Part shown: positions 1 through 64,000 of the stretch, piece by piece | Numbering within the stretch: the stretch's first letter is position 1 | Layout: each line of letters starts with the position of its first letter | Assembly: GCA_034440575.1 (NCBI GenBank) | Contig: JAOTOL010001633.1 | Coordinates: 310,001 to 374,000 of the forward strand | DNA: 64,000 nucleotides | Direction of reading: 5' to 3' | From: Imbricaverruca yamaguchii | Taxonomy: Eukaryota; Arthropoda; Thecostraca; Neoverrucidae | Position numbers and translations under genes: made by a program | Notes under the pieces: model-generated | What the model was told of the DNA's origin: nothing | Seen by the model: the letters and a program-made list of their open reading frames with translations, nothing else | The model's database searches: none

Positions 1-195
1 CATGCCACCGTCTGATACTCCTGCCGCCGTATGATACCCGTCTGATGCTCCTGCCGTTGTCTGGTACTCATGCCACCGTATGATACCCTTGGCCGCAGTC
101 TGATATCCCTGCCGCCAACCGATACCCTGCTGCCGTTTGATACCCCTCCTGCCGTCTGATGTCCCGGCCTCTGCCTGATACCCCTGCCCCCGCAG
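1..195. repeat. Degenerate minisatellite abutting exon a acceptor
   Basis: Imperfect units of about 25-30 bases built on the motif ccgtctgatacc-cctgccgc recur from the window edge to the acceptor of exon a. The polypyrimidine tract of the acceptor (cccctgcccccgcag) looks like part of the last unit. The left limit lies outside the window. Confidence 0.7.
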
Positions 196-326
196 GCGAC
201 ATCCACGGCAACTTTGAGGACCTGGTGTGCTTTGAGAAGGCCTTGTGGCGACTGGGGCCGCTGCTGACGCCGGCCAGCTTTCTGTTCCTCGGCGACTACG
301 TCGACCGCGGTGCGCACGGCGTGGAG
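196..326 (+). CDS. Phosphatase exon a (GDIHG and GDYVDRG motifs)
   Basis: Acceptor cccccgcag precedes base 196 and donor gtgagt follows base 326. It enters with two bases of a split Gly codon and ends in phase 0. It encodes GDIHGN and, about 35 residues later, FLGDYVDRG, the first two metal-binding motifs of PPP phosphatases. The upstream 195 bases are an imperfect repeat that runs right up to the acceptor. Confidence 0.93.
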
Positions 327-3300
327 GTGAGTGTCGTGTCAGTCATGGTCCAGGCGGCGACAGTAGTGGACACGTCACCGCGCGGGCCTAAACTGGGCCG
401 GTCAGGAATAGACGCACTTTAGATGCTCCTTCAGTGGTCAAAATGGAAACGTTTTGCAGATATGAGGGTTGTGTATGCTCCGTCGTCCACGACCCTAGTT
501 GTTATGCCCATGCGTGATGGGAACGTGAGGATCAGCGTTCCTGGACTACCTTGAGGCCAATGAACCTGTTTTAGTAGTATTGTTGGGAAAGGATTTCGTC
601 GAGGTCGGGCCAAAAACAAATATAAGTTTGAGGAACAAAAGGAGAGATAGAGCTGAAGCGAAGGAAATGTGCTTACTTTCGGATGTACTTCGCATTGGCT
701 TTGAGTATCATCACTATCCAATCCGTTTAAGCACACACTGAACAGTTGTTTCATAACTCAATCATAAACAAAAACTCGCCCACTGACCTCCCCCTCGCTG
801 CACGGTGTTTTCGTGTTATCCCCGAATGACTCAAGTGCAGCTGAACTCAACAAGTACTTACTGGTAAAACCAGGTAAACAAAACCACCATACAAAATGGA
901 TGCCTTTGTACGGCAATGGGCATGGAACCGAAACAAAAGTTTTCTTATTTCTTCTATTTGCATATGTGACTAAACAGTAAAGCTGTCAATTATATGCAGA
1001 GCCACCAAAGTACGTATTGCTATCAAAGAGGCCAGTGGTTAATGGGCGTGGTTGGTTCGGCGCATGGCGCCGCTACTCACTAACGGTGGGGTGCTCCGTA
1101 CAGTGTCCTAAACTTATTTCACCATTAACTGTGAGGATAAAGAAAGAAGTTGCTTGGGAATAGTGAAAGATTAGAAGAAAATAAAGGATCGTCACTTGAG
1201 GATTAAAACAGTGGAATGCCTTTCACTTCAGTCACATGCATTTTACATTATTTAGCAGTAGTGTGCATAATGACTGCCCACACATGTGGCAAAATGGTAA
1301 AAACCTAAGACAAGGATGAAATAGCACAATTCCATTAAATGTGAATTTCCAGGCAACATGGTCAATTATTTTACACTGGCTCCGTACATCTGATGTGTGG
1401 CTGGTCTGACTCACGATCGGGCGGTACCCAGGCCGACTGTGTAGCCTGCCGTGTGTAGAGTCCTGATGTGTGGCTGGTCTGACTCACGATCGGGCGGTAC
1501 CCAGGCCGACTGTGTAGCCTGCCGTGTGTAGAGTCCTGATGTGTGGCTGGTCTGACTCACGATCGGGCGGTACCCAGGCCGACTGTGTAGCCTGCCGTGT
1601 GTAGAGTCCTGATGTGTGGCTGGTCTGACTCACGATCGGGCGGTACCCAGGCCGACTGTGTAGCCTGCCGTGTGTAGAGTCCTGATGTGTGGCTGGTCTG
1701 ACTCACGATCGGGCCGGTACCCAGGCCGACTGTGTAGCCTGCCGTGTGTAGAGTCCTGATGTGTGGCTGGTCTGACTCACGATCGGGCGGTACCCAGGCC
1801 GACTGTGTAGCCTGCCGTGTGTAGAGTCCTGATGTGTGGCTGGTCTGACTCACGATCGGGCCGGTACCCAGGCCGACTGTGTAGCCTGCCGTGTGTAGAG
1901 TCCTGATGTGTGGCTGGTCTGACTCACGATCGGGCGGGTACCCAGGCCGATTTTAGCCTGCCGTGTGTAGAGTCCTGATGTGTGGCTGGTCTGACTCACG
2001 ATCGGGCCGGTACCCAGGCCGACTGTGTAGCCTGCCGTGTGTAGAGTCCTGATGTGTGGCTGGTCTGACTCACGATCGGGCCGGTACCCAGGCCGACTGT
2101 GTAGCCTGCCGTGTGTAGAGTCCTGATGTGTGGCTGGTCTGACTCACGATCGGGCCGGTACCCAGGCCGACTGTGTAGCCTGCCGTGTGTAGAGTCCTGA
2201 TGTGTGGCTGGTCTGACTCACGATCGGGCCGGTACCCAGGCCGACTGTGTAGCCTGCCGTGTGTAGAGTCCTGATGTGTGGCTGGTCTGACTCACGATCG
2301 GGCGGTACCCAGGCCGACTGTGTAGCCTGCCGTGTGTAGAGTCCTGATGTGTGGCTGGTCTGACTCACGATCGGGCGGTACCCAGGCCGACTGTGTAGCC
2401 TGCCGTGTGTAGAGTCCTGATGTGTGGCTGGTCTGACTCACGATCGGGCCGGTACCCAGGCCGACTGTGTAGCCTGCCGTGTGTAGAGTCCTGATGTGTG
2501 GCTGGTCTGACTCACGATCGGGCGGTACCCAGGCCGACTGTGTAGCCTGCCGTGTGTAGAGTCCTGATGTGTGGCTGGTCTGACTCACGATCGGGCGGTA
2601 CCCAGGCCGACTGTGTAGCCTGCCGTGTGTAGAGTCCTGATGTGTGGCTGGTCTGACTCACGATCGGGCCGGTACCCAGGCCGACTGTGTAGCCTGCCGT
2701 GTGTAGAGTCCTGATGTGTGGCTGGTCTGACTCACGATCGGGCGGTACCCAGGCCGACTGTGTAGCCTGCCGTGTGTAGAGTCCTGATGTGTGGCTGGTC
2801 TGACTCACGATCGGGCCGGTACCCAGGCCGACTGTGTAGCCTGCCGTGTGTAGAGTCCTGATGTGTGGCTGGTCTGACTCACGATCGGGCCGGTACCCAG
2901 GCCGACTGTGTAGCCTGCCGTGTGTAGAGTCCTGATGTGTGGCTGGTCTGACTCACGATCGGGCCGGTACCCAGGCCGACTGTGTAGCCTGCCGTGTGTA
3001 GAGTCCTGATGTGTGGCTGGTCTGACTCACGATCGGGCGGTACCCAGGCCGACTGTGTAGCCTGCCGTGTGTAGAGTCCTGATGTGTGGCTGGTCTGACT
3101 CACGATCGGGCGGTACCCAGGCCGACTGTGTAGCCTGCCGTGTGTAGAGTCCTGATGTGTGGCTGGTCTGACTCACGATCGGGCCGGTACCCAGGCCGAC
3201 TGTGTAGCCTGCCGTGTGTAGAGTCCTGATGTGTGGCTGGTCTGACTCACGATCGGGCGGTACCCAGGCCGACTGTGTAGCCTGCCGTGTGTAGAGTCCT

Positions 3301-6300
3301 GATGTGTGGCTGGTCTGACTCACGATCGGGCCGGTACCCAGGCCGACTGTGTAGCCTGCCGTGTGTAGAGTCCTGATGTGTGGCTGGTCTGACTCACGAT
3401 CGGGCCGGTACCCAGGCCGACTGTGTAGCCTGCCGTGTGTAGAGTCCTGATGTGTGGCTGGTCTGACTCACGATCGGGCGGTACCCAGGCCGACTGTGTA
3501 GCCTGCCGTGTGTAGAGTCCTGATGTGTGGCTGGTCTGACTCACGATCGGGCGGTACCCAGGCCGACTGTGTAGCCTGCCGTGTGTAGAGTCCTGATGTG
3601 TGGCTGGTCTGACTCACGATCGGGCCGGTACCCAGGCCGACTGTGTAGCCTGCCGTGTGTAGAGTCCTGATGTGTGGCTGGTCTGACTCACGATCGGGCC
3701 GGTACCCAGGCCGACTGTGTAGCCTGCCGTGTGTAGAGTCCTGATGTGTGGCTGGTCTGACTCACGATCGGGCCGGTACCCAGGCCGACTGTGTAGCCTG
3801 CCGTGTGTAGAGTCCTGATGTGTGGCTGGTCTGACTCACGATCGGGCCGGTACCCAGGCCGACTGTGTAGCCTGCCGTGTGTAGAGTCCTGATGTGTGGC
3901 TGGTCTGACTCACGATCGGGCCGGTACCCAGGCCGACTGTGTAGCCTGCCGTGTGTAGAGTCCTGATGTGTGGCTGGTCTGACTCACGATCGGGCGGTAC
4001 CCAGGCCGACTGTGTAGCCTGCCGTGTGTAGAGTCCTGATGTGTGGCTGGTCTGACTCACGATCGGGCGGTACCCAGGCCGACTGTGTAGCCTGCCGTGT
4101 GTAGAGTCCTGATGTGTGGCTGGTCTGACTCACGATCGGGCCGGTACCCAGGCCGACTGTGTAGCCTGCCGTGTGTAGAGTCCTGATGTGTGGCTGGTCT
4201 GACTCACGATCGGGCCGGTACCCAGGCCGACTGTGTAGCCTGCCGTGTGTAGAGTCCTGATGTGTGGCTGGTCTGACTCACGATCGGGCGGTACCCAGGC
4301 CGACTGTGTAGCCTGCCGTGTGTAGAGTCCTGATGTGTGGCTGGTCTGACTCACGATCGGGCCGGTACCCAGGCCGACTGTGTAGCCTGCCGTGTGTAGA
4401 GTCCTGATGTGTGGCTGGTCTGACTCACGATCGGGCCGGTACCCAGGCCGACTGTGTAGCCTGCCGTGTGTAGAGTCCTGATGTGTGGCTGGTCTGACTC
4501 ACGATCGGGCCGGTACCCAGGCCGACTGTGTAGCCTGCCGTGTGTAGAGTCCTGATGTGTGGCTGGTCTGACTCACGATCGGGCCGGTACCCAGGCCGAC
4601 TGTGTAGCCTGCCGTGTGTAGAGTCCTGATGTGTGGCTGGTCTGACTCACGATCGGGCCGGTACCCAGGCCGACTGTGTAGCCTGCCGTGTGTAGAGTCC
4701 TGATGTGTGGCTGGTCTGACTCACGATCGGGCCGGTACCCAGGCCGACTGTGTAGCCTGCCGTGTGTAGAGTCCTGATGTGTGGCTGGTCTGACTCACGA
4801 TCGGGCCGGTACCCAGGCCGACTGTGTAGCCTGCCGTGTGTAGAGTCCTGATGTGTGGCTGGTCTGACTCACGATCGGGCCGGTACCCAGGCCGACTGTG
4901 TAGCCTGCCGTGTGTAGAGTCCTGATGTGTGGCTGGTCTGACTCACGATCGGGCCGGTACCCAGGCCGACTGTGTAGCCTGCCGTGTGTAGAGTCCTGAT
5001 GTGTGGCTGGTCTGACTCACGATCGGGCCGGTACCCAGGCCGACTGTGTAGCCTGCCGTGTGTAGAGTCCTGATGTGTGGCTGGTCTGACTCACGATCGG
5101 GCCGGTACCCAGGCCGACTGTGTAGCCTGCCGTGTGTAGAGTCCTGATGTGTGGCTGGTCTGACTCACGATCGGCGGCCGACTGTGTAGCCTGCCGTGTG
5201 TAGAGTCCTGATGTGTGGCTGGTCTGGCTCACCGTCCGGCCGGTACCAGGCCGACTGTGTAGCCTGCCGTGTGTAGAGTCCTGATGTGTGGCTGGTCTGA
5301 CTCACGATCGGGCCGGTACCCAGGCCGACTGTGTAGCCTGCCGTGTGTAGAGTCCTGATGTGTGGCTGGTCTGACTCACGATCGGGCCGGTACCCAGGCC
5401 GACTGTGTAGCCTGCCGTGTGTAGAGTCCTGATGTGTGGCTGGTCTGACTCACGATCGGGCCGGTACCCAGGCCGACTGTGTAGCCTGCCGTGTGTAGAG
5501 TCCTGATGTGTGGCTGGTCTGACTCACGATCGGGCCGGTACCCAGGCCGACTGTGTAGCCTGCCGTGTGTAGAGTCCTGATGTGTGGCTGGTCTGACTCA
5601 CGATCGGGCCGGTACCCAGGCCGACTGTGTAGCCTGCCGTGTGTAGAGTCCTGATGTGTGGCTGGTCTGACTCACGATCGGGCCGGTACCCAGGCCGACT
5701 GTGTAGCCTGCCGTGTGTAGAGTCCTGATGTGTGGCTGGTCTGACTCACGATCGGGCCGGTACCCAGGCCGACTGTGTAGCCTGCCGTGTGTAGAGTCCT
5801 GATGTGTGGCTGGTCTGACTCACGATCGGGCCGGTACCCAGGCCGACTGTGTAGCCTGCCGTGTGTAGAGTCCTGATGTGTGGCTGGTCTGACTCACGAT
5901 CGGGCCGGTACCCAGGCCGACTGTGTAGCCTGCCGTGTGTAGAGTCCTGATGTGTGGCTGGTCTGACTCACGATCGGGCCGGTACCCAGGCCGACTGTGT
6001 AGCCTGCCGTGTGTAGAGTCCTGATGTGTGGCTGGTCTGACTCACGATCGGGCCGGTACCCAGGCCGACTGTGTAGCCTGCCGTGTGTAGAGTCCTGATG
6101 TGTGGCTGGTCTGACTCACGATCGGGCCGGTACCCAGGCCGACTGTGTAGCCTGCCGTGTGTAGAGTCCTGATGTGTGGCTGGTCTGACTCACGATCGGG
6201 CCGGTACCCAGGCCGACTGTGTAGCCTGCCGTGTGTAGAGTCCTGATGTGTGGCTGGTCTGACTCACGATCGGGCCGGTACCCAGGCCGACTGTGTAGCC

Positions 6301-9300
6301 TGCCGTGTGTAGAGTCCTGATGTGTGGCTGGTCTGACTCACGATCGGGCCGGTACCCAGGCCGACTGTGTAGCCTGCCGTGTGTAGAGTCCTGATGTGTG
6401 GCTGGTCTGACTCACGATCGGGCGGTACCCAGGCCGACTGTGTAGCCTGCCGTGTGTAGAGTCCTGATGTGTGGCTGGTCTGACTCACGATCGGGCCGGT
6501 ACCCAGGCCGACTGTGTAGCCTGCCGTGTGTAGAGTCCTGATGTGTGGCTGGTCTGACTCACGATCGGGCCGGTACCCAGGCCGACTGTGTAGCCTGCCG
6601 TGTCGGGTACGAGCTCCTGATGTGTGGCTGGTCTGACTCACGATCGGGCGGTACCCAGGCCGACTGTGTAGCCTGCCGTGTGTAGAGTCCTGATGTGTGG
6701 CTGGTCTGACTCACGATCGGGCCGGTACCCAGGCCGACTGTGTAGCCTGCCGTGTGTAGAGTCCTGATGTGTGGCTGGTCTGACTCACGATCGGGCCGGT
6801 ACCCAGGCCGACTGTGTAGCCTGCCGTGTGTAGAGTCCTGATGTGTGGCTGGTCTGACTCACGATCGGGCCGGTACCCAGGCCGACTGTGTAGCCTGCCG
6901 TGTGTAGAGTCCTGATGTGTGGCTGGTCTGACTCACGATCGGGCGGTACCCAGGCCGACTGTGTAGCCTGCCGTGTGTAGAGTCCTGATGTGTGGCTGGT
7001 CTGACTCACGATCGGGCCGGTACCCAGGCCGACTGTGTAGCCTGCCGTGTGTAGAGTCCTGATGTGTGGCTGGTCTGACTCACGATCGGGCGGTACCCAG
7101 GCCGACTGTGTAGCCTGCCGTGTGTAGAGTCCTGATGTGTGGCTGGTCTGACTCACGATCGGGCCGGTACCCAGGCCGACTGTGTAGCCTGCCGTGTGTA
7201 GAGTCCTGATGTGTGGCTGGTCTGACTCACGATCGGGCCGGTACCCAGGCCGACTGTGTAGCCTGCCGTGTGTAGAGTCCTGATGTGTGGCTGGTCTGAC
7301 TCACGATCGGGCGGTACCCAGGCCGACTGTGTAGCCTGCCGTGTGTAGAGTCCTGATGTGTGGCTGGTCTGACTCACGATCGGGCCGGTACCCAGGCCGA
7401 CTGTGTAGCCTGCCGTGTGTAGAGTCCTGATGTGTGGCTGGTCTGACTCACGATCGGGCCGGTACCCAGGCCGACTGTGTAGCCTGCCGTGTGTAGAGTC
7501 CTGATGTGTGGCTGGTCTGACTCACGATCGGGCGGTACCCAGGCCCGACTTTGTAGCCTGCCGTGTGTAGAGTCCTGATGTGTGGCTGGTCTGACTCACG
7601 ATCGGGCCGGTACCCAGGCCGACTGTGTAGCCTGCCGTGTGTAGAGTCCTGATGTGTGGCTGGTCTGACTCACGATCGGGCCGGTACCCAGGCCGACTGT
7701 GTAGCCTGCCGTGTGTAGAGTCCTGATGTGTGGCTGGTCTGACTCACGATCGGGCCGGTACCCAGGCCGACTGTGTAGCCTGCCGTGTGTAGAGTCCTGA
7801 TGTGTGGCTGGTCTGACTCACGATCGGGCCGGTACCCAGGCCGACTGTGTAGCCTGCCGTGTGTAGAGTCCTGATGTGTGGCTGGTCTGACTCACGATCG
7901 GGCCGGTACCCAGGCCGACTGTGTAGCCTGCCGTGTGTAGAGTCCTGATGTGTGGCTGGTCTGACTCACGATCGGGCCGGTACCCAGGCCGACTGTGTAG
8001 CCTGCCGTGTGTAGAGTCCTGATGTGTGGCTGGTCTGACTCACGATCGGGCCGGTACCCAGGCCGACTGTGTAGCCTGCCGTGTGTAGAGTCCTGATGTG
8101 TGGCTGGTCTGACTCACGATCGGGCCGGTACCCAGGCCGACTGTGTAGCCTGCCGTGTGTAGAGTCCTGATGTGTGGCTGGTCTGACTCACGATCGGGCC
8201 GGTACCCAGGCCGACTGTGTAGCCTGCCGTGTGTAGAGTCCTGATGTGTGGCTGGTCTGACTCACGATCGGGCCGGTACCCAGGCCGACTGTGTAGCCTG
8301 CCGTGTGTAGAGTCCTGATGTGTGGCTGGTCTGACTCACGATCGGGCCGGTACCCAGGCCGACTGTGTAGCCTGCCGTGTGTAGAGTCCTGATGTGTGGC
8401 TGGTCTGACTCACGATCGGGCCGGTACCCAGGCCGACTGTGTAGCCTGCCGTGTGTAGAGTCCTGATGTGTGGCTGGTCTGACTCACGATCGGGCCGGTA
8501 CCCAGGCCGACTGTGTAGCCTGCCGTGTGTAGAGTCCTGATGTGTGGCTGGTCTGACTCACGATCGGGCCGGTACCCAGGCCGACTGTGTAGCCTGCCGT
8601 GTGTAGAGTCCTGATGTGTGGCTGGTCTGACTCACGATCGGGCCGGTACCCAGGCCGACTGTGTAGCCTGCCGTGTGTAGAGTCCTGATGTGTGGCTGGT
8701 CTGACTCACGATCGGGCCGGTACCCAGGCCGACTGTGTAGCCTGCCGTGTGTAGAGTCCTGATGTGTGGCTGGTCTGACTCACGATCGGGCCGGTACCCA
8801 GGCCGACTGTGTAGCCTGCCGTGTGTAGAGTCCTGATGTGTGGCTGGTCTGACTCACGATCGGGCCGGTACCCAGGCCGACTGTGTAGCCTGCCGTGTGT
8901 AGAGTCCTGATGTGTGGCTGGTCTGACTCACGATCGGGCCGGTACCCAGGCCGACTGTGTAGCCTGCCGTGTGTAGAGTCCTGATGTGTGGCTGGTCTGA
9001 CTCACGATCGGGCCGGTACCCAGGCCGACTGTGTAGCCTGCCGTGTGTAGAGTCCTGATGTGTGGCTGGTCTGACTCACGATCGGGCCGGTACCCAGGCC
9101 GACTGTGTAGCCTGCCGTGTGTAGAGTCCTGATGTGTGGCTGGTCTGACTCACGATCGGGCCGGTACCCAGGCCGACTGTGTAGCCTGCCGTGTGTAGAG
9201 TCCTGATGTGTGGCTGGTCTGACTCACGATCGGGCCGGTACCCAGGCCGACTGTGTAGCCTGCCGTGTGTAGAGTCCTGATGTGTGGCTGGTCTGACTCA

Positions 9301-44299: not shown

Positions 44300-44655
44300 G
44301 GAAGCGGCGCAGCTCCTCGCCGCAGCACCATGTTATAGTGGTCATATGTAGGCAAACACAAACGGCGCAGTCTGCTTCCTCAGTTGTCGACCTACCGCAG
44401 CACCATGTTATAGTGATCATATGTATGCACACACAATCGGCGCAGTCTGCTTCCTCAGTTGACCTACCGCAGCACCATGTTATAGTGATCGTATGTAGGC
44501 ACACACAATCGGCGCAGTCTGCTTCCTCAGTTGTCGACCTACCGCAACACCATGTTATAGTGATCATATGTAGGCACACACAAACGGCGCAGTCTGCTTC
44601 CTCAGTCATTGACCGGCCGTAGCACCATGTTATAGTGGTCATATATAGGCACACA
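44300..44655. repeat. ~74-bp array downstream of the talin stop
   Basis: Five units of about 71-76 bases with gcagcaccatgttatagtga, tcatatgtaggcacacacaa and gcgcagtctgcttcctcagt. It begins about 160 bases beyond the stop codon on the minus strand, so it lies in the talin 3' UTR or just past it. Confidence 0.92.
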
Positions 44656-44812
44656 TAATCACTCTCTGCATCTCGCCAGCCGCGCCGGCAGTTTGCGCCG
44701 CCTGCTCGCGGCGCCGACCACAGTCCATCTCTCTCCCGCTCGTCGGAGCGCCGTGCCGCCGGCCGGCGGCGGCGAGCGGGCCACACAAGCGAGGCGAGCA
44801 CGCCGCCGGCGT

Positions 44813-53900: not shown

Positions 53901-56900
53901 CTTTGAGCTGCTCGGCGGTGGCCACCAGCTCGGTGACGCACTGGGCGATCTGCCGGCTGACGGCCGGCAGCTGCTGCTTGCTCTCCACCGTCGGCTTGTT
54001 GAGGATGACCAGCACCGACTGCAGCAGGTGGCGGTACTCGGCGGCGATGTTGTGGCCCGCCTCCAGCGTGCGCTGGCGCAGCTCGGCACTCTCGGCGCCG
54101 TACGCCGCGCCCTGTCCACGGCCAGACGAGTCAGTGGAGGTCAGTGGAGGTCAGTAAAAGTCAGTGGTCAGTAGAGGTCAGTATAGGTCAGTAGAGGTCA
54201 GTAGAGGCTAGATGTTATCAGATGTCAATAGATGCCAGTGGAGGCTAGTAGAGGTCAGCAGCCGCGCCGGCCGTGGCCGCGCATCAAACCCACATCCCGC
54301 AGAAACCGCCTGTGAGAATCAGTCATGTAGATTCTCAAAAACTCACAGATCACGACACTGTAACCCAGTTTCCTTGGTCACCCCTAAATTGCCTTAACCC
54401 GCGCACGTCCGGGGGGGGGGGGCAGATATCTGCCCCCTCCGGTTTTTCCTCATTTGCCGCCAAACTAATCTGGTTAGCATGGCCAAACCTCGCATAGCTG
54501 TTTATTGGTCTTTTTCGCATATCCTCATACATTTTAAATCCTGGGGCATCTCAGGTCAGGTCACCAGGTCAAGCGAAGTAACCCAACTACACTCGGGAGT
54601 TCTAGGAGGCATAACTGCTACAATAATTGGGCGATTGATTTCAAACTTATAACATGTCATGATCTCATCAGGGACCACAATATGTATATCGTTTTTTTCG
54701 TAGCATTGACCTTAGGTCAGTTCGCTGTCATGGCTTCCCCATATTAGGGCTATGGTAAAATATACAAATGTTTCCTGGTTACATATTTGCGCTCGGAATG
54801 ATCTCACAACGGTTGTGGCATGTAGATGGAAGCTATACTCAATGCTACCACTGACATTTATTGCTCAGTGACCTCACCAAGGTCTCTGAGGTCACCTGAG
54901 ATCACTACACATTTATGCGCATTACATCGCACTGCATTGATATAGAAGGCTTGGATTACCGTCATTGTGCTCGTATCGTCAAGACGCGTCGATTGATACA
55001 TTACATGCCCTCCCTAGACCTTGTGAGGTCATGACATCATGACCTTGACCTGAGTTTCGGTTGACCTGACCTTAAATTACACCGCCTATTGTCGGTAGCG
55101 CATTTCAAGGACTGTCGAATAGCGTTCGCCGTTTGTTTCCATCTATTACAGGTCCTGATATATGTGTCAATATCTGGGTCCCACCTGATCTGGTCGAATT
55201 TGACCTATGATTACCCAGTGACCTGACTGTTGACCTGAACGAAAAAGTGACATCTGCCCCCCGGACATACGAAGTTGGCGCGGACCTCCGGACGTGCGAG
55301 TGTTAAGACAGCAGTCCGGTTTACGCAAGTCAAGGAAACACTCCTGCTCCAATGTGCAAACCTGATCTTAATCCGGTTTATTGTCATGGAAACCGTGTCT
55401 GTGAAGCCCATAGCCCGCACAGTTATCTATGGGCTGTCCGCAAATAACTATACAGACCTTATGCATCAGTCAAACATGCAACATGGCCGCAGCCGTCCCG
55501 AGTTGCACAGAGCGTCTACATGGGTCAGTCGACCGACCCGAGCAGCGATGGTGCCCACCTTGCTGGCGGACAGCATGTCGGCGATGGCCTTCCGTCCCGA
55601 GTTGGCGGCGGCAATCACGTCGTCCTGGCGACAGCTGTTGCCGGCGGCCACGGCGCGCGCCGTCGCCTGCGTCACCGGCTTAGTGGCGCGGATCAGCTCC
55701 TCGGCCGTCACCTGCCGGACCGGTCACACGTCAGCTGTGTCACCGGCTTGGTGGCGCGGGTCAGGGGTACCTGCCGGACCGGTCACACGTCAGCTGTGTC
55801 ACCGGCTTGGTGGCGCGGGTCAGGGGTACCTGCCGGACCGGTCACACGTCAGCTGTGTCACCGGCTTGGTGGCGCGGACCAGGGGTACCGCCGGACCGGT
55901 CACACGTCAGCTGTGTCACCAGCTGGTGGCGCGGACCAGGGGTACCTGCGGGACCGGTCACACGTCAGCTGTGTCACCGGCCTGGTGGCGCGGACCAGGG
56001 GTGCCGGACCGGTCTAGCTGTGTCACCGACTTGGTGGCGCGGACCAGGGGTACCGCCAGACCGGTCACACGTCAGCTGTGTTACCGGCTTGGTGGCGCGG
56101 ACCAGGGGTACCTGCCGGACCGGTCACACTTCAGCGTGTCACCGACTTGGTGGCGCGGACCAGGGGTACCTGCCAGACCGGTCACACGTCAGCTGTGTTA
56201 CCGGCTTGGTGGTGCGGACCAGGGGTCCTGCCGGACCGGTCACCCAGCTGTGTCACCGACTGGTGGCGCGGACCAGGGGTACCGCCAGACCGGTCACACG
56301 TCAGCTGTGTTACCGGCTTGGTGGTGCGGACCAGGGGTACCTGCCGGACCGGTCACACTTAGCTGTGTCACCGACTTGGTGGCGCGGACCAGGGGTACCT
56401 GCCAGACCGGTCACACGTCAGCTGTGTTACCGGCTTGGTGGTGGGACCAGGGGTCCTGCCAGACCGGTCACACGTCGCTGTGTTCCGGCTTGGTGGTGCG
56501 GACCAGGGGTCCGCCAGACCGGTCACCTCAGCTGTGTCACCGACTGGTGGCGCGGACCAGGGGTACCGCCAGACCGGTCACACGTCAGCTGTGTTACCAG
56601 CTGGTGGTGCGGACCAGGGGTACCTGCCAGACCGGTCCACGTCAGCTGTGTTACCAGCTGGTGGTGCGGACCAGGGGTACCTGCCAGACCGGTCACACGT
56701 CGCTGTGTTACCAGCTTGGTGGTGCGGACCAGGGGTACCGCCAGACCGGTCACACGTCGCGTGTTACCAGCTGGTGGTGCGGACCAGGGGCCTGCCAGAC
56801 CGGTCACACGTCAGCTGTGTTACCAGCTTGGTGGTGCGGACCAGGGGTACCTGCCAGACCGGTCACGTCAGCTGTGTTCCGGCTGGTGGTGCGGACCAGG

Positions 56901-59900
56901 GGTACCTGCCGGACCGGTCACACTCAGCTGTGTCACCAGCTGGTGGTGCGGACCAGGGGTACCTGCGGGACCGGTCACACGTCAGCTGTGTTACCGGCTG
57001 GTGGTGCGGACCAGGGGTACCGCCGGACCGGTCACATCAGCGTGTCACCAGCTTGGTGGTGCGGACCAGGGGTACCTGCGGGACCGGTCACACGTCAGCT
57101 GTGTTACCGGCTTGGTGGTGCGGACCAGGGGTACCTGCCGGACCGGTCACATCAGCTGTGTCACCAGCTTGGTGGTGCGGACCAGGGGTACCTGCCGGAC
57201 CGGTCACAGGTCAGCTGTGTCACCGGCTTGGTGGCGCGGGTCAGGGGTACCTGCCGGACCGGTCACACGTCAGCTGTGTCACCGGCGGTGGCGCGGGTCA
57301 GGGGTACATGCCGGACCGGTCACACTCAGCTGTGTCACCGACTTGGTGGCGCGGACCAGGGGTACCTGCCAGACCGGTCACACGTCAGCTGTGTCACCGA
57401 CTTGGTGGTGCGGACCAGGGGTACCTGCCGGACCGGTCACACGTCAGCTGTGTCACCGGCTTGGTGGCGCGGGTCAGGGGTACCTGCCGGACCGGTCACA
57501 CGTCAGCTGTGTCACCGGCTTGGTGGCGCGGGTCAGGGGTACCTGCCGGACCGGTCACACTTCAGCTGTGTCACCGGCCTGGTGGCGCGGACCAGGGGTA
57601 CCTGCCGGACCGGTCACACTTCAGCTGTGTCACCGGCCTGGTGGCGCAGACCAGGGGTACCTGCCAGACCGGTCACAGGTCAGCTGTGTCACCGGCTTGG
57701 TGGCGCGGACCAGGGGTACCTGCCGGACCGGTCACAGGTCAGCTGTGTCACCGGCTGGTGGCGCGGGTCAGGGGTACCTGCCGGACCGGTCACACGTCAG
57801 CTGTGTTACCGGCTTGGTGGTGCGGACCAGGGGTACCTGCCGGACCGGTCACACGTCAGCTGTGTCACCGGCTTGGTGGTGCGGACCAGGGGTACCTGCC
57901 GGACCGGTCACACGTCAGCTGTGTTACCGGCTTGGTGGCGCGGGTCGGGTACCTGCCAGACCGGTCACACTCGCTGTGTCACCGACTTGGTGGCGCGGGT
58001 CGGGTACCTGCCGGACCTGTTACATGTCGCTGTGCCACCGACTGGTGGCGCGGACCGGGGACCTGCCGACCGCACGTGTGTGTTCCGACTTGGTGGTGCG
58101 GACCAGGGTACCTGCCGGACCGGTCACAGTCAGCTGTGTCACCGGCTTGGTGGTGCGGACCAGGGGTACCTGCCGGACCGGTCACACGTCAGCTGTGTCA
58201 CCGGCTTGGTGGCGCGGGTCAGGGGTACCTGCCGACCGGTCACACTCAGCTGTGTCACCGACTTGGTGGCGCGGGTCAGGGTACCTGCCGGACCTGTTAC
58301 ATGTCGCTGTGCCACCGACGGTGGTGCGGACCAGGGGTACCTGCCGGACCGGTCACACGTCAGCTGTGTCACCGGCTTGGTGGCGCGGACCAGGGGTACC
58401 TGCCGGACCGGTCACACGTCAGCTGTGTCACCGGCTTGGTGGCGCGGGTCAGGGGTACCTGCCGGACCGGTCACACGTCAGCTGTGTCACCGGCTTGGTG
58501 GCGCGGGTCAGGGCCGCCGTGGCGCCCGGCGCGCGGACCTGCCGACCGAGTGCACCGCTTGGTGGCGCGGACCGGGGTACCTGCCGGACCGGTCACACTC
58601 GCTGTGTCACCGCTGGTGGGCGCCAGGGGTACCTGCCGGACCGGTCACACGTCAGCTGTGTCACCGGCTTGGTGGCGCGGACCAGGGGTACCTGCCGGAC
58701 CGGTCACACTTCAGCTGTGTAGCGCCCATCATGTCGTCCGTCACGCACGTCACGCATTGTGGTTGGGAAACTAAGATAGGCCGGATAACAGACTTTCTTT
58801 TAAACCCGGTGATAAATTATTTCCGTATTTCTGAGTCTCATTCATACGCGTTTCATAATGCAAGCTGTATACTGTTCTAATTTTCTTTCGGAGCTCTTTT
58901 GGCCATGGTTGTGTTCTAGTTCAACAAAACGATTCCTGCAGCCACAATATGACAGAACCGACTTCCTACAGTCAAAACATCGGCAACCTACCAAGCTAAC
59001 ACCCGCAAGTCGGATCAGTTCAGGTTCGATTGGGCAAAGTCAGTCGTCGGGTCAGTCATGCGACGTTAGTTCAGATATCATATGCAAGCTCAGTTCAGAT
59101 CTCACATGGGAGGTCAGTTCGGATGTCGCGTAAGAGGTCAGTTCAGATGTCACATCACCAACGCACAGCCCCAGCGGCGGTAGCACCTCTCAGTCCAGGC
59201 GCCGAACTCAGCCAGCCGTCGATCAACTGCACCGTCGAATCCGACACGATCCACCCACTACACAACCACGTCCGACACGATCAAACCACTACACCACCAC
59301 GTCCGACACGATCCACCCACCACACCACCACGTCCGACACAATCCATCCACCACACCACCACGTCCGACACGATCCAGCCACCACACCACCACGTCCGAC
59401 ACGATCCATCCACTACACCACCACGTCCGACACGATCCATCCACTACACCACCACGTCCGACACGATCCATCCACTACACCACAACGTCAGACACGATCC
59501 ATCCACTACACCACAACGTCCGACACGATCCATCCACTACACCACCCCCACCATCCACGTCCGACACGATCCACCCACTACACCACAACGTCAGACACGA
59601 TCCATCCACTACACCACAACGTCAGACACGATCCAACCATCACACCACCACGTCCGACACGATCCATCCACTACACCACAACGTCCGACACGATCCACCC
59701 ACTACACCACAACGTCCGACATAATCCACCCACTACACCACCACGTCCGACACGATCCACCCACTACACCACCACGTCCGACACGATCCATCCACTACAC
59801 CACCACGTCCGACACGATCCACCCACTACACCACCACGTCCGACACGATCCACCCACTACACCACAACGTCCGACACGATCCATCCACTACACCACCACG

Positions 59901-62900
59901 TCCGACACGATCCATCCACTACACCACCACGTCCGACACGATCCATCCACTACACCACCACGTCCGACACGATCCACCCACTACACCACCAACGTCCGAC
60001 ATAATCCACCCACTACACCACCACGTCCGACACGATCCATCCACTACACCACCACGTCCGACACGATCCATCCACTACACCACCACGTCCGACACGATCC
60101 ACCCACTACACCACCACGTCCGACACGATCCATCCACTACACCACCACGTCCGACACGATCCACCCACTACACCACCACGTCCGACACGATCCATCCACT
60201 ACACCACCACGTCCGACACGATCCACCCACTACACCACCACGTTCGACACGATCCATCTACTACACCACCACGTCCGACACGATCCAACCACTACACCAC
60301 CACGTCCGACACGATCCATCCACTACACCACCACGTCCGACACGATCCATCCACTACACCACCACGTCCGACACGATCCACCCACTACACCACCACGTCC
60401 GACACGATCCATCCACTACACCACCACGTCCGACACGATCCACCCACTACACCACAACGTCCGACACGATCCACCCACTACACCACCACGTCCGACACGA
60501 TCCACCCACTACACCACCACGTCCGACACGATCCACCCACTACACCACCACGTCCGACACGATCCACCCACTACACCACCACGTCCGACACGATCCACCC
60601 ACTACGCCACCACGTCCGACACGATCCACCCACTACACCACAACGTCCGACACGATCCATCCACCACACCACCACGTCCGACACGATCCAGCCACAGCAC
60701 GCCAGCAGTGTCCGGCGGCGGGACGCCTCCGCGGCAGTCGCCACTCACCTTCTGTCTGGGCGGGTCGGCAGAGTCGAAGGCGCGCATCTCCTGCGCCAGC
60801 GCCTCGACGGTGGCCTCGAGCGCGCGCGTGCCGCGGTTGTGCTCGTCCTCCACCACCTTGACCGTCTTCAGCAGCGACGTCACGTTGGTCACCATCACCT
60901 GCAGCACGCCACAGCACGGCTAACGAGCGGCCCCAGTGGCTCGGCAGCATGGGTGTCCATCGGCCCAGGATCCCGGCACAGATCCCGTCAGCCTGACCGG
61001 CTCCGCATCGGACGTCGGACTGGCCGACAGCCGAGCAGCAGAACGACAGGCAGACTGCAGGTCGGGCTTCAGTTCAGCAGTCTGACTGCAGGTCAGGCCA
61101 ACAGTCTGACCGTACTCCAGTACAAGACCCAGCAGCTGAATGCGTCGTAAAAGGACCAGAGGCCCTGCCCGTTCGCCAGTCCAATATTTCGAGTGCAGGC
61201 CGGGCTTCATCCAGACAGTGTGACTGTACAGCAGGCCTACAGTTCGTCTGCATGAGGCGGCCGTCGGGCGGCCTGACACCCGGCCGGCGCATGCCGCCCG
61301 CTACAGCACACACACACGCGCACAAGCAGCGAGCCGGCCGACCGGCGCCCAACAGCGCGAGGGGCGGCGGCAGGCTCCCGGCCACACGCGCTGTCAGCAC
61401 CCACCCCACCCCCACCCGCAGGACACGGTAGGCGCGGCCGCGGCAGGGGGCGACAGCGGCACTATGCGCTGTGGACGGACTAGGCGCCATGCACGCGGCG
61501 GCCGGCGCGGCCGGCGCGGCCAGACGGCGGGCGGGCGGGCGGGCAAGGGTCGAGGCCGGACGGTGCAGTGCGAGGGCGGGCGGTCGGCGCCGCGCAGTTA
61601 GTGGAGGCCTAGCGCACCAGAGGGACACCACGCTACAGCTAGCTGACCACCAGCCCGGTTAGTGAGGAGCACCCAACAGCAGTGTGACTGCCTACCTGGC
61701 GGCAGGTGCCGGCGCTGGGCCGACCCGGGCCGTCCCGCCTCACCCACTCCTCGCCGGCACACCGGGACACGCCAGGCGCCGCGTGCTCACAGAATGACTA
61801 TCAAAACTCGTGTATTTAAAGCTGTAGGCGACACCCGGGCCCAGCGACAGCAGTGGGCGGCTTTAGCACAGACCGGCCGAGAGACGCGCGGCAACGCGGC
61901 CGCCTGTTTTGGCGTAGCTCCGCCCGGCCGACAACAGGTCGGGGCGGCAGCGTGTCTTCGGCGCTTGCGCGGCCAAACAACACACACGCGGACGCACTCA
62001 GTGCAAAATTCTGATGTCGCCTATGTCGCCCGCAGGCTGATTGAGGTTTTCAACGCTAAGCAAACGGATAAGCTCCTCCTCCTGGTCGGATACGGCCAAA
62101 TCAGTAACGTAGTCTGACTCTGACGTGTACCCCTGGTGGCGGAGAACAGAAACAGAAATCAGTGGATGAGAGATAGAAAAAGACAGCATAAAAGAGGAGT
62201 TGAAAAAGTGTAGGGCTCTGCCGACGGTCGGCACTGAGTGGAACGAGCACGCCTGAGTTATGTTTCTGTTTCTGCTACGGATAAAACGGACGGCTAAGGA
62301 ATACACGGGTTGACTGGGCAAGGAGCAATGGGGCACACATTCGAAGGATGGTAGCGTTCAAACACCGCGTCACTTATGACAGCGTCTCAAGCCGGCGGTT
62401 GAACTACGCACGCCGAAACAGGCCAGTTTCCTTCACCGCAAAGGTTCACCATTGCCATGATAAGTGCCATGAGAGAACCAACACCGGGCCAAGCAAACAC
62501 CAGCTGAAAGCCAAGCAAACACCGGCTGAAAGCCAAGCGAACACAGGTTTGACATCTATACCGCGCCCGGGAACAATTGCCGAGTCACCAGCTTCCCACT
62601 AATTGTTGCTGCTTGAAAGGATCACATCCATATCAGACGATGCTGCCTGTCGCGGCCTCAGCAGCCGACTATGAGCCAGTCTGCCAGCCGCGACATACAT
62701 AAGCATCCGCCCCGCCAGTAGCACGAGAAGAGGAAGATGGCGGGTGTGTTTCTCTGCCGAGAACTACCAGCGTGGGGAGGACGTGAGGCAGTGCTGACGC
62801 CACCCACCTTGGCCGATTCCTTGAGATTAAGCATGGCCGGGTCGGTGGACGGCTTGCCGGCGGCAGACTTGGTGGCGTGGATCAGGTCGCCGAGAGCAGA

Positions 62901-64000
62901 CGCCACGTCCCGCACGGCGTTCATCAGCATCACCTGCCGGCCCGGCCCGGCTGTCACACACGCGGCACACGCCACAGCACAACTCTGCACGGCTGGAAGC
63001 TGTCACACAGCAGCACACGCCACAAACCCAATCTGTCATACACACAGCACAGCACAGCTCTGCACGGCTGGAAGCTGTCACACAGCAGCACACTCCACAA
63101 GCCCCATCTTCCACACACGCGGCACACAACACAGTAACACTCTGCACATCGGAGTCTATCGCTCACGCATTACGCAGCACAGCCGGATTGGCACACACGC
63201 AGCGCACACACACAATGCACTGACGCCCGCCGTCAGTCCTGCGGTACAGGGTTCTCAATGCCAATGGCCGCTGTGCTCAAATAAACTGAGTAATTTATAA
63301 TACTTGTGCACTTCTTCCCGTCCTAGCAACGTATCACGAAGCTTCGCAAAACGGAAGTTCGAAATCGAAATCGAAGTGCCGTTATATTCGATGTCAGACG
63401 CTCCAGAAGGACTAAATGTCCATTTCAAATCCGGAAAAAGAGCAGGTCTGGACCCAAGTGTCGCCGGGTCACCAATGATTCGACGGTGCCACAAAAAATG
63501 CATAGTCAACATGAAAAGTCACGAATGCAGAGGGAACGGTTACTGGTATTGCAATCCAAACAGACAGGTGTACCTGATAACAAGACAGCTGTGCCCAGGT
63601 ACAAAAATAAAGCCGGCGCAGTTGACTCGATGTGGCGTAACTAACCCTCTATAGCTGACTCAGTATAACTGGCTCAGTGTATGCGACCCTCCTAGCCAAC
63701 CCCTATGTAACCGACTCAGTATAATCGACCAGGTTTAGCTTCCTCGATGCGCTGGACCCCGTGTGGACCCAGTGTCATCAAATTCCTGTAACATACCCTC
63801 ATGTCTGACACGGCATAACCTGCCCGGTATACCAGAGCCAGTGCAACTGACTCGATGTACCGGACCGATCACCACTGACCTCCTGCACTCTATAAATGGC
63901 CCGGACGGCGCCGCTGACCTGGGCGTCGGTGTTGTCCTGGCCGGGACTGGCGGCGCCCAGCTTGACCACGTCGGCCAGCTGCAGGATGGTGGCGACCGCG
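44813..64000 (-). CDS. talin (rhea-type): Talin, C-terminal part (13 exons; N-terminal part off window)
   Basis: Talin links integrin tails to actin at adhesion sites and recruits vinculin. The joined exons give 667 residues plus stop. Order: R11 (ADVVKLGAAS, NAVRDVASALGDLIHATK, VMVTNVTSLLKTVK), R12 (AVAAGNSCRQDDVI, ALADML-like AIADML), R13 actin-binding module (WVDPDDP, SIDAAAKKLASLRPR, IAAATSALVKAASSAQREL, GQWSEGLISAARTV, STAQLLVACKVKAD), and the dimerisation helix VLRKERELEDARLKLAALRR. Vertebrate talin stops just after this helix; here about 190 Ser/Tyr/Gly-rich residues follow. Every intron keeps phase. Five exons have tandem arrays at their acceptors. Confidence 0.95.
44966..46067. other. 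Talin intron between tail exons 2 and 3
   Basis: Contains the short LINE-tail insertion at 45578-45630. Nothing else was recognised. Confidence 0.5.
45578..45630 (-). mobile_element. 53-bp LINE 3'-end insertion with 15-bp target duplication
   Basis: On the minus strand tgggcgctgtataaccactg, cagttgatgcgccctaaacc, cataataactaac. Perfect direct repeats taacctcgccacgta lie at 45563-45577 and 45631-45645. It is the same element as 42323-42377, in opposite orientation. Confidence 0.9.
46068..46240. mobile_element. Diverged tRNA-derived SINE copy
   Basis: ctaggggtgagcggtcga, a degenerate B-box region gtgggtcctagtctt, then gcccacgacccgccggtgtg and agcgacgctata parallel the SINE at 36264-36429. Confidence 0.55.
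46243..46372 (-). CDS. talin (rhea-type): Talin tail exon 2
   Basis: Acceptor gcgccgcag, donor gttagt, phase 0 end. SPAADRSYEALDSSITEGPS, then SESLKHFKSFAGGSASANSS. Frame and phase fit both neighbours. The donor lies directly against a diverged SINE (46068-46240). Confidence 0.83.
46881..47111 (-). CDS. talin (rhea-type): Talin tail exon 1
   Basis: Acceptor cgcgcggcag, donor gtgcgc, phases 2 and 2. YDSSRHETSRQDADGARNVS, then TPGNTLGKKTSYSVTREF and QSGDPTASISGGLAKLTI. No domain was recognised. It follows the dimerisation helix and belongs to an invertebrate-type extension. Confidence 0.85.
47112..47840. repeat. ~22-bp minisatellite abutting the first talin tail exon
   Basis: Units of caccaccggccagttcc followed by ttcc, tccc or atcac run from about 47157, some 45 bases before the acceptor on the talin strand. 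A higher-order dimer or trimer pattern (caccacgtgccagttccatc, acacatcaccggccagttcc) is visible at 47370-47720. A 37-bp LINE tail is inserted at 47548-47584. Confidence 0.92.
47548..47584 (-). mobile_element. 37-bp LINE 3'-end insertion in a minisatellite
   Basis: On the minus strand cgcgcccttaagcccaaata then (ATCA)n. The 13-base acaccacgtgcca stands on both sides (47535-47547, 47585-47597). That word also belongs to the host repeat, so the duplication is less certain than for the other copies. Confidence 0.7.
47990..48130. repeat. AT-rich palindrome cluster
   Basis: tctgatata / tatatcaga around 48030-48050, followed by several variants of ttatctcagat and agataag. No transposon ends were identified. 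Confidence 0.55.
48373..48500 (-). CDS. talin (rhea-type): Talin exon (dimerisation helix and start of tail)
   Basis: Acceptor gtgccggccag, donor gtgggt, phase 2 end. VLRKERELEDARLKLAALRR, then AKYGEGGESEGEGYLSGYDS. It matches human MLRKERELEEARKKLAQIRQ, after which vertebrate talins end. Here the reading continues with an acidic Gly/Ser stretch. Confidence 0.95.
48505..48750. repeat. Minisatellite abutting the talin dimerisation-helix exon acceptor
   Basis: Units of gtcagccggtcacacgcagg, with tccagc or ttcagc, run to within about 20 bases of the acceptor tgccggccag on the talin strand. The stretch 48751-49107 beyond it has no recognised feature. Confidence 0.88.
49108..49332 (-). CDS. talin (rhea-type): Talin exon (R13 end)
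   Basis: Acceptor gccggcggccag, donor gtgagt, 75 codons: VAGSTAQLLVACKVKADPDS, then NRVKKATDNLVRAAQQAI and KRLVGGLAQEMDAQSD. It matches human STAQLLVACKVKADQDS and KMVGGIAQIIAAQ, the last helix of the I/LWEQ (THATCH) module. Confidence 0.96.
49767..49931 (-). CDS. talin (rhea-type): Talin exon (R13)
   Basis: Acceptor cccgtcgccag, donor gtgcgt, 55 codons: VSQRANYSTEDGQWSEGLIS, then AARTVAVATHSLCQAANSLV and QGHSSEEMLISAAKQ. It matches human DGQWSQGLISAARMVAAAT. Confidence 0.96.
49932..51384. other. Talin intron with (ACGAC)n-derived repeat
   Basis: 50865-50930 is cgacacgacacgacaggaca-type repeat, decaying to about 51130 (ggacaggaaaagaccggaca). 49970-50230 is GC-rich. No exon is expected. Confidence 0.6.
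51385..51510 (-). CDS. talin (rhea-type): Talin exon (R13)
   Basis: Acceptor cgtccgcag, donor gtgagt, 42 codons, phase 0: EADQDLNFDELILDSCQAIA, then AATSALVKAASSAQRELVDR. It matches human FEEQILEAAKSIAAATSALVKAA. Confidence 0.96.
51511..52354. other. Talin intron, imperfect hairpin only
   Basis: 51669-51722 is an imperfect inverted repeat (tatgtctgatatctggttg / caaccaagaatatcaaacata). No other feature was recognised. Confidence 0.5.
52355..52479 (-). CDS. talin (rhea-type): Talin exon (R13 start)
   Basis: Acceptor tgtgccgacag, donor gtgggt. SDWVDPDDPCAIAETELLGA, then ASSIDAAAKKLASLRPRRAV. It matches human TEWVDPEDPTVIAENELLGAA. Confidence 0.96.
52480..53900. other. Talin intron, GC-rich
   Basis: A (CA)n run at 52527-52556 and a very GC-rich segment of ggccggcc words (52700-53010), then a decayed repeat with ctcagggtgtgac / cctcagagtgtgac (53480-53610). 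No exon is expected. Confidence 0.55.
53901..54111 (-). CDS. talin (rhea-type): Talin exon (R12)
   Basis: Acceptor ggccgtggacag, donor gtgcga after one base of Gly. GAAYGAESAELRQRTLEAGH, YRHLLQSVLVILNKP, then CVTELVATAEQLKG. It matches human EAAYHPEV...GYLELLDHVLLTLQKP...VTELIQAAEAMKG. Confidence 0.95.
54112..54265. repeat. ~10-bp repeat abutting talin R12 exon acceptor
   Basis: gtcagtggag / gtcagtagag repeated about a dozen times. On the talin strand it forms the ctgacctccactgacctcca tract about 20 bases before the acceptor. Confidence 0.85.
54398..55302. mobile_element. TTAA-flanked TIR element (about 0.9 kb), piggyBac-like MITE
   Basis: TTAA at 54394-54397 and 55303-55306 flanks ends reading CCCGCGCACGTCCGG (left) and, inverted, CACTCGCACGTCCGG (right). 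A second inverted block, gggggcagat..., lies inside both ends, although partly degenerated into a G run on the left. TTAA duplication is characteristic of piggyBac. No transposase was recognised; the interior is rich in aggtca/tgacct words. It lies in a talin intron. Confidence 0.65.
55559..55711 (-). CDS. talin (rhea-type): Talin exon (R11/R12 boundary)
   Basis: Acceptor ggtccggcag, donor gtgggc, 51 codons, phase 0: VTAEELIRATKPVTQATARA, then VAAGNSCRQDDVIAAANSGR and KAIADMLSASK. It matches human ATAKAVAAGNSCRQEDVI. The first 40 or so bases are echoed in the array upstream. Confidence 0.96.
55712..58720. repeat. 59-bp array carrying the acceptor and exon start of the R12 talin exon
   Basis: About 50 units. 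On the talin strand a unit reads gtgaccggtccggcag, gtacccctggtccgcgccac, caagccggtgacacagctga. The true junction is ggtccggcag followed by gtgacggccgaggag, then atccgcgccactaagccggt. Acceptor and the RATKPVT codons are thus both in the unit. gcgggtc/gcggacc and cggtca/cagacc variants form blocks. Many one- to three-base gaps occur at 55880-58340. Confidence 0.95.
59215..60705. repeat. 31-bp array in talin intron, donor side
   Basis: About 47 units of cacgatccatccactacacc, accacgtccga; c/t at the tenth base and accaca/accacc are the main variants. It occupies nearly the whole right half of the intron, ending about 45 bases inside the donor of the R11 exon. The long plus-strand frame through it is not a gene. 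Confidence 0.96.
60749..60898 (-). CDS. talin (rhea-type): Talin exon (R11, vinculin-binding helix)
   Basis: Acceptor gtgctgcag, donor gtgagt, 50 codons, phase 0: VMVTNVTSLLKTVKVVEDEH, then GTRALEATVEALAQEMRAFD. It matches human VMVTNVTSLLKTVKAVEDE. The donor is followed within about 50 bases by the 31-bp array. Confidence 0.96.
60899..61997. other. Talin intron, part
   Basis: Contains an approximate repeat with cagactgcaggtcgggcttc / cagtctgactgcaggtcagg (about 61045-61130) and a GC-rich stretch with gccggcgcggccggcgcggc (about 61500). No exon is expected here from the talin alignment. Confidence 0.5.
61998..62132 (-). CDS. Candidate alternative 3'-terminal talin exon, or unrelated exon-like ORF
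   Basis: On the minus strand a strong acceptor (tttctgtttctgttctccgc, caccag) is followed in phase 0 by 44 codons, GYTSESDYVTDLAVSDQEEE, LIRLLSVENLN..., and a TGA. It sits in the intron between two talin exons that are both phase 0, so splicing to it would give a talin lacking R12, R13 and the dimerisation helix. I know no homologue. No polyadenylation signal was identified. It may be chance. Confidence 0.3.
   Translation of the reverse strand, partial: GYTSESDYVTDLAVSDQEEELIRLLSVENLNQPAGDIGDIRILH
62808..62933 (-). CDS. talin (rhea-type): Talin exon (R11)
   Basis: Acceptor gggccggcag, donor gtgggt, 42 codons, phase 0: VMLMNAVRDVASALGDLIHA, then TKSAAGKPSTDPAMLNLKES. It matches human VVLINAVKDVAKALGDLISATK. 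Two or three 76-bp units containing ctctgcacggctggaagctg lie upstream of the acceptor (62940-63140). Confidence 0.94.
62940..63140. repeat. ~76-bp CA-rich repeat upstream of the talin R11 exon
   Basis: ctgcacggctggaagctgtc and acacagcagcacac(g/t)ccaca appear twice, with a degenerate third unit. On the talin strand it ends just before the acceptor. Confidence 0.75.
63140..63918. other. Talin intron with an unassigned ORF
   Basis: The plus strand holds a 116-codon open frame, 63304-63654 (begins MCTSSRPSNVSRS, contains CHKKCIVNMKSHECRGNGYW). I recognise no family, and there is no sign of promoter or splice support. It may be chance or a transposon relic. Confidence 0.3.
63919..64000 (-). CDS. 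talin (rhea-type): Talin exon (R11 start, cut by window edge)
   Basis: AVATILQLADVVKLGAASPG then QDNTDAQ; donor gtcagc. It matches human AATAILKACADVVKLGAASLG. The remainder of the exon and all upstream exons lie beyond the right edge. Confidence 0.92.

Follow-up and report, generated by a model that had tools for sequence, protein, structure and literature searches.

The window analysed here, by which we mean the whole 64,000-nt stretch, is a single sequence from one barnacle species and was chosen because an earlier note on this DNA had noticed in it a pattern of tandem arrays at splice sites. Three genes were modelled, namely a PPP-type phosphatase, LARP7, and the C-terminal part of talin, which models together provide 27 acceptors and 25 donors. 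The phosphatase, on the + strand, has six exons in the window, a Metallophos domain match and a partial relative from Amphibalanus with 91% identity. LARP7, likewise on the + strand, has nine exons, and the best of its four matches were those of Pollicipes pollicipes (66% identity, 98% coverage) and Amphibalanus amphitrite (57%, 94%). The talin part, on the - strand, comprises thirteen exons and matches talin-1 and other talins, with no match named as barnacle among the best 120 of 154. In all three genes the joined exons form one open frame, and at most junctions the relatives align across within five residues. Alignment gaps occurred at the talin junctions T2 and T8 in all three talins and at T12, T13, and T14 in two of the three, and among the phosphatase junctions at Pe in one of four relatives and at Pb and Pc in the later-starting partial relative P0027. 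Among the array-bearing junctions other than Pa, at least one relative aligned without a gap across each of Pb, Pd, Pf, L5, L7, T4, T5, T11, and T12, the residues at L7 being unlike and T12 being ungapped in one of three relatives. The acceptor of phosphatase exon f was placed at 18469 on the basis of the relatives P0027 and P0006, and for talin T1 the relatives suggest an exon end about 39 bases earlier than in our model (CCCAG/GTCAGC, the slash marking the junction here and below), which shift alters none of the counts within 60 bp given below. The exons are short (93–355 bp).

Arrays fill 30% of the window and 18,342 of the 46,761 intronic bases (39%). In contrast, the repetitive sequence stated for barnacle genomes in the passages available to us is 3.2% for Pollicipes and 3.53% for Capitulum (PMC8416341; PMC8917513), so that either the window may be unusual or the published tools may overlook arrays of this kind.

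We label the arrays after the exons that they adjoin: Pa to Pf for phosphatase exons a to f, L5 and L7 for LARP7 exons 5 and 7, and, by acceptor, T2 (62933), T4 (55711), T5 (54111), T11 (48500), and T12 (47111) for talin. In the phosphatase (all +), Pa is a 19-bp array, GTCTGATACCCCTCCTGCC, at 98–160, just upstream of exon a (first exon base 196), with ragged copies from about base 3 and a unit that contains CTGAT and lacks an AG. At exon b, a 74-bp array of 112 copies (Pb74, 1390–9652) is fused to a 56-bp array of 10 copies (Pb56, 9627–10176), which latter reaches 12 bp into the exon (acceptor 10165) and whose copies each carry CTGAT, a pyrimidine stretch, and CGACAG/GTGGTGG or a sequence close to it. 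The Pb74 copies are nearly all 99–100% alike over 8.3 kb, next to the more varied 56-bp array, and represent a very recent or strongly homogenised expansion. Pd, a GT-rich 82-bp array without CTGAY (11822–12239), ends 35 bp upstream of exon d (12275), and Pf, a 43-bp array of about 24 copies (17471–18507), lies at exon f. After the donor of exon e (13827), 32-bp repeats occupy 13850–14500, TRF detecting them from 14126 and the earlier, decayed copies being recognised by eye; a related block lies at 16858–17242.

In LARP7 (all +), L5 has nested periods of 13 to 65 bp (35437–35605) and ends 55 bp upstream of exon 5 (35661), its 65-bp unit lacking an AG; and L7, a 49-bp array of about 24 copies (37497–38643), carries CTGAC...GGTCCTCAG/CGGG across the acceptor of exon 7 (38640). 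A 64-bp array at 31178–31347, 185 bp upstream of exon 4, served as a comparison array and is not counted as acceptor-linked. At the coding end, a 47-bp array (39717–40015) begins in the last codons (RDKLLRRLKE) and extends beyond the stop; here the duplication spans the end of the coding sequence and itself supplies the stop codon, and is thus a mirage-like event (in the sense explained below) at a coding edge devoid of a splice site. The intron before exon 5 also contains LINE-like open pieces (32311–34492, +), of which that at 33002–33370 matches RVT_1. A sequence with a tRNA-like GTTCGAATC box, perhaps a SINE, lies at 36265–36345 (+); ARAGORN found no tRNA in the window.

In talin (all -), T2 is a 75-bp array of about two copies (62966–63126) situated 32 bp upstream of its exon (first base 62933) and without CTGAY; T4, a 59-bp array of about 52 copies (55710–58720), runs across its acceptor; T5, a 10-bp array, CTCTACTGAC, at 54130–54258, ends 18 bp upstream of its acceptor, its unit consisting of a branch-site-like motif plus pyrimidines; T11, a GGCTGACC-rich array with nested periods of 8 to 83 bp (48517–48770), lies 16 bp upstream; and T12, a 22/45-bp array, GGAACTGGCCGGTGGTGTG, whose unit has no CTGAY (47154–47847), lies 42 bp upstream. 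The sole long donor-side array has a 31-bp unit in 46 copies (59240–60695) and begins 53 bp downstream of a talin donor (60748); no junction sequence was seen in that unit. Past the talin stop codon, 4.6 copies of a 75-bp unit (44320–44660) fall presumably in the 3' untranslated region. A short open frame, GYTSESDYVTDLAVSDQEEELIRLLSVENLNQPAG..., at about 61999–62131, stands behind an acceptor-like CCACCAG in a talin intron and had no Pfam match.

TRF returned 59 rows, which were merged, at a score of at least 60 and a period of at least 5, into 21 arrays, 19 of them intronic and two situated at the ends of the LARP7 and talin coding sequences or past them. The 3' edge lay within 60 bp of an acceptor in 11 of the 19 intronic arrays, against 1.44 expected under random placement within their own introns—none of 20,000 such placements attained 11—and against a mean of 0.71 under placement in any intron (none of 3,000 attaining 11); the intron before phosphatase exon a, to which one of the eleven belongs, has only its last 195 bases within the window. 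The eleven acceptors are precisely those that the earlier note had named (phosphatase exons a, b, d, and f, LARP7 exons 5 and 7, and five talin exons), and its proposal of a local origin with an acceptor bias is supported. At donors, the 5' edge was within 60 bp in one of the 19 (1.47 expected), and the ratio of 11 to 1 departs from an even split (p 0.006). The acceptor-array edges range from 55 bp upstream of the exon to 39 bp inside it: four arrays (Pb, Pf, L7, and T4) cross the junction and seven are intron-internal. Donor strength, exon length, and intron length at array-bearing exons showed no difference (p 0.58, 0.95, and 0.60, respectively).

With standard TRF settings the acceptor counts remained far over the null at cut-offs of 30, 40, 50, 60, 80, 120, 200, and 400 (14/47 to 6/8), and throughout that range the donor counts were not above it. 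With relaxed settings (match 2, mismatch 3, indel 5) and cut-offs of 30 to 60, donors likewise exceeded the null (9/55, 9/55, 8/40, and 7/32; p 0.003–0.004), each of these counts including the window's left edge, which is not a donor; the corresponding acceptor counts were 15, 15, 13, and 13, also over the null. From a cut-off of 80 upward the relaxed donor excess was non-significant (4/21 at 80, p 0.11). Because laxer repeat finding reveals weak arrays at donors too, the acceptor bias is strong rather than absolute: arrays of high score are a mark of acceptors, and weak or decayed ones are to some extent a mark of either boundary. The earlier note had stated that donor-side arrays were few, citing the 31-bp array and the decayed 32-bp repeats described above; both are present.

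As to the content of the units, the Pf unit consists of CTGCAGCAGAATGGTCGCCTGCTGACTGTGTTCTGGTCG, corresponding to bases 1 to 39 of exon f (33 of 39 identical, with five of the six differences at third codon positions), plus GCAG from the intron end. The T4 unit joins the acceptor CTGACGTGTGACCGGTCCGGCAG to the exon codons LIRATKPVTQ, present as LVRATKPVTQ, and matches exon bases 16 to 51. For both units their own exon was superior to all 26 other acceptor exons and none of 500 shuffled units did as well, so that at least these two units originate in part from exons and hold, beyond doubt, coding sequence. The L7 and Pb 56-bp units also span the AG, with a short exon homology: L7 matched its own exon better than 26 of 26 others, though 10 of 500 shuffles equalled it, and in Pb four of the 26 exons and 46 of 500 shuffles were equal. 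The other seven acceptor arrays gave no convincing exon homology (T2, with 3 of 26 exons and 16 of 500 shuffles equal, being the best of them), and in four of the eleven few AGs occur from the array start to the acceptor (Pa 1, T5 2, T11 5, L5 5). The suggestion that the pyrimidine tract, the AG, and the exon start had been duplicated together therefore fits four of the eleven arrays, clearly in Pf and T4 and weakly in L7 and Pb, and does not fit the seven that are intron-internal, to which the four with few AGs belong.

Units were said to differ from gene to gene, and in the main they do. In 306 pair-strand comparisons among 18 units, none of 200 shuffles reached the score of the related pairs within one intron (Pb56 with Pb74, and, in another intron, the two 32-bp blocks, Pe32 with Pe32old), nor those of three pairs across loci: Pb74 with T4 (score 18), Pe32 with T4 (14), and Pd with T2 on opposite strands (12). 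The GT-rich Pd and T2 also paired with a score of 29, which 2 of 200 shuffles attained. All these pairs come from the best 14 rows of the 306, and the three cross-locus similarities are about the number expected from so many tests. The spreading of one satellite family is thus ruled out for most pairs, the units being mainly locus-specific among the 18 compared.

CTGAY, which we take to be a branch-site-like consensus, occurs in 7 of the 11 acceptor units against 0.75 expected (p 1.2e-6; other strand, 1 of 11) and in none of the ten other units, where 0.62 were expected (Fisher p 0.004 for the contrast), each array being represented by one TRF consensus, picked by us where TRF offered several. 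Counted over whole arrays, CTGAY was absent from Pd and T2, occurred once in T12 and twice in L5, and reached 28 sense and 21 antisense occurrences in L7; among the other arrays, the block at 16858–17242 held three sense and two antisense, that at 59068–59155 two, and that at 59240–60695 three. In the region from -60 to -11 the motif was found at 10 of 11 array acceptors versus 4 of 16 array-free ones (p 0.0013), and in 13% of 50-nt stretches drawn at random from intron sequence free of arrays. These counts by unit, array, and acceptor region were all made with the phosphatase exon f acceptor set at 18475.

What the arrays imply for splicing can be read from the four that span a junction, in which 294 AGs lie upstream of the one used (Pb 20, Pf 67, L7 52, T4 155). 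As scored by a small PWM built on the 27 acceptors and 25 donors of this one window, those as strong as the used AG numbered 3 in Pb, 7 in Pf, 45 in L7, and none in T4, some of whose copies, reading GGCGGTACC, have no AG. Only 96 of the 294 keep the frame, and all 96 then meet a stop, leaving no open in-frame extension; a correct mRNA therefore needs the last, exon-proximal AG. Judged from the reading frame, the upstream copies in these four arrays cannot serve as exon starts. The earlier note had supposed that the arrays are tolerated by virtue of a usable acceptor preserved in every copy. This is not supported: the use of any upstream AG in the junction arrays would break the protein, the AG and CTGAY columns of the arrays tested show no extra conservation (see below), and tolerance must then rest on the use of the last AG. 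The selection of that AG would probably be effected by exon definition, with short exons and a nearby donor.

The history of the arrays was approached through the copies themselves, most of which, in the six arrays measured, are about 85–100% like their consensus. Between exon and array consensus, over 39 bases of Pf and 30 bases of T4 that we chose, nine sites differ, seven of them third codon positions (p 0.008) and six silent, as would be expected if the duplicate derived from coding sequence and the exon was kept under selection. The simplest reading would be an old founder duplication followed by homogenisation of the array, with continuing selection on the exon. In Pf, L7, and T4 the intron passes straight into the first copy at the 5' array edge, the intron tail leading into it in Pf. 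Matches of three or four bases (TCG in Pf, CAGT in L7, CAG in T4), noticed by eye where the founders presumably ended, may be due to chance. In Pf and L7 the copies at the array edges diverge slightly more than the others, which is not the case in Pb56 or T4. Purifying selection acting on the splice signals inside the arrays was looked for and not seen: in Pb56, Pb74, Pf, L7, and T4 the conservation of CTGAY columns does not exceed that of the remaining unit, nor does that of AG columns in Pb56, Pf, L7, and T4. Because these signals enjoy no extra conservation, the array copies look like passengers.

We therefore favour, with a probability of about 0.7, the view that the arrays derive from in-place duplications at intron 3' ends whose copies are intronic passengers, a process of the same kind as the amphioxus mirage. 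Short tandem duplications would have been born in place at the 3' ends of barnacle introns, some confined to the branch-site and pyrimidine stretch or to the intron end, and others passing over the AG into the first exon codons. The arrays would then have expanded into the intron, in the direction leading away from the exon, and would have been homogenised as ordinary minisatellites are. The exon-adjacent AG would still be used, the downstream donor pairing with the nearest acceptor under exon definition, so that the extra copies would remain intronic passengers while the coding copy evolved on under purifying selection. Seven of the eleven arrays contain no notable exon sequence, so that the eleven may not all share one origin. 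Moreover, the acceptor bias lacks an account under exon definition, because donors should tolerate junction duplications equally; as candidate causes there remain sequence proneness, transcription-linked damage, and unequal tolerance.

Two of the alternatives that we weighed could act as causes within this same account, so that the odds we attach to the various readings do not sum to one. Plain slippage, in which low-complexity acceptor ends would breed repeats more than donors and splicing would be irrelevant, is a real possibility to which we would give less than an even chance. Several intronic arrays are indeed pyrimidine- or GT-rich, and in 80-nt windows 6-mer direct repeats were slightly commoner at the 16 array-free acceptors than at the 23 array-free donors (2.25 vs 1.48, p 0.05). 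In those windows, however, 4-mers and 5-mers showed no difference (p 0.36 and 0.17), nor did any of the three sizes in 140-nt windows (p 0.41, 0.84, and 0.99 for 4-, 5-, and 6-mers), so that direct-repeat richness as the source of the bias was set aside in the lack of any clear contrast between acceptors and donors; and several units are 43 to 82 bp long and of mixed sequence, some with exon codons. Duplication initiated by damage coupled to transcription or splicing, for instance where the polymerase pauses or R-loops form at the 3' splice site, we consider rather unlikely: the sense strand has more T than A in 10 of 11 acceptor arrays, and its G+T fraction is above 0.5 in 8 of 11 versus 3 of 8 other intronic arrays, but the sense strands of T4, T5, and Pa lack this G+T richness and the remaining intron sequence is slightly skewed in the same direction. 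The wider conjecture that the barnacle 3' splice site is a birthplace of minisatellites—by a process coupled to transcription or splicing that would duplicate the segment from branch site to exon, genome-wide, acting at acceptors far more than at donors, driving intron growth (arrays being 39% of the intronic DNA here), and with exon definition as the filter through which the arrays persist—we would advance only tentatively, as more doubtful than probable.

The remaining alternatives would give the copies a function. Were the arrays ladders of branch sites and pyrimidine tracts whose repetition is retained for the strength it lends to weak acceptors in a GC-rich genome, the presence of CTGAY in 7 of 11 acceptor units and none of ten others, as well as upstream of nearly all the array acceptors, would be explained; a looser motif, though, narrows the latter contrast to 10/11 versus 7/16, the CTGAY columns of five arrays are not better conserved, and array and array-free acceptors do not differ in PWM score (means 9.8 and 8.2, p 0.5). 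In addition, a duplicated 3' splice region brings its branch site along in any case, and the CTGAC of Pf is derived from the exon, all of which makes such a ladder improbable. Recursive splicing, with an AG/GT in every unit allowing stepwise removal of the intron, is very improbable indeed, since the CAG/GT found in the Pb and T4 units would restore donors of low score (4.5 and 1.3, respectively, against 3.1 to 13.2 for authentic ones, 4.5 being within that range) and the Pf and L7 units have no AG/GT at their junctions.

The earlier note knew of no described system of this kind, an assertion that proved wrong: in amphioxus, minisatellite-like tandem duplications of exon-intron boundaries, termed mirages, are described, in the parts of the literature that we draw on, in Adh3, in the globins BflGb6 and BflGb9, in troponin C, and in PGBD5, with units of 10–72 bp in Adh3 and 150–160 bp in the globins (PMC3087553; PMC3902484), the original paper being that of Canestro 2002 (cited through PMC3087553). 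According to the same accounts, the BflGb6 mirage repeats the 3' end of the intron with the 5' part of the exon, mirages are located at 3' boundaries as well as 5' ones, AG or GT is retained in many of the copies though not in all, splicing is reported as undisturbed, and the mechanism is described as unclear (PMC3087553; PMC3902484). "Mirage" in PMC7960049 denotes a transposon class and not a boundary repeat, and neither "mirage" nor "minisatellite" occurs in the intron-gain review PMC3443670. A search by terms of the available text of four barnacle genome papers gave no mention of such arrays (PMC8416341; PMC8917513; PMC8270832; PMC11331182), and among the literature titles and abstract openings listed, a scope outside which most subscription papers fall, no arthropod report of acceptor-linked minisatellites was found.

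Measured against the amphioxus mirages as there described, 4 of the 11 barnacle arrays agree with the core definition in having a boundary-spanning unit (Pf and T4 clearly; L7 and Pb with a weak exon part), and many but not all of their copies carry splice signals, as the 294 AGs and the T4 copies without one illustrate. By contrast, seven of the eleven stop short of the exon; the host is a barnacle instead of a cephalochordate; arrays of up to about 120 copies affect 11 of 27 acceptors within a single window; the units have a branch-site content; and the arrays are strongly acceptor-biased, whereas mirages are reported at both boundaries. Units with a donor junction were not seen in the barnacle window, the donor side giving an excess of weak arrays under relaxed settings only. 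Mirages are further characterised by length polymorphism between haplotypes and by homogenised inner copies from which those at the edges are left out, with regard to which the barnacle arrays are mixed, Pf and L7 having slightly more divergent edge copies and Pb56 and T4 not. Intron gain by tandem duplication, exemplified by the potato RdRp case in the portion of that report available (PMC4974935), similarly involves a local duplication containing a branch site, tract, and 3' splice site, but there a new intron or exon is made and here none of the 294 upstream AGs of the four junction arrays opens in frame. With ordinary intronic minisatellites our arrays share the head-to-tail arrangement and the high similarity of copies noted above, and they differ in being tied to acceptors and in having some units that are partly exonic. 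We therefore regard the barnacle arrays as a variant of the amphioxus mirage in an arthropod, new in lineage, density, size, acceptor bias, and branch-site content. A second, distant lineage with dense mirages would make their origin testable, and likewise the spliceosome's choice of a single acceptor where dozens of near-copies are on offer; should the acceptor bias prove genome-wide, it would point to a cause linked with the 3' splice site; and such arrays may disrupt gene prediction and assembly in barnacles.
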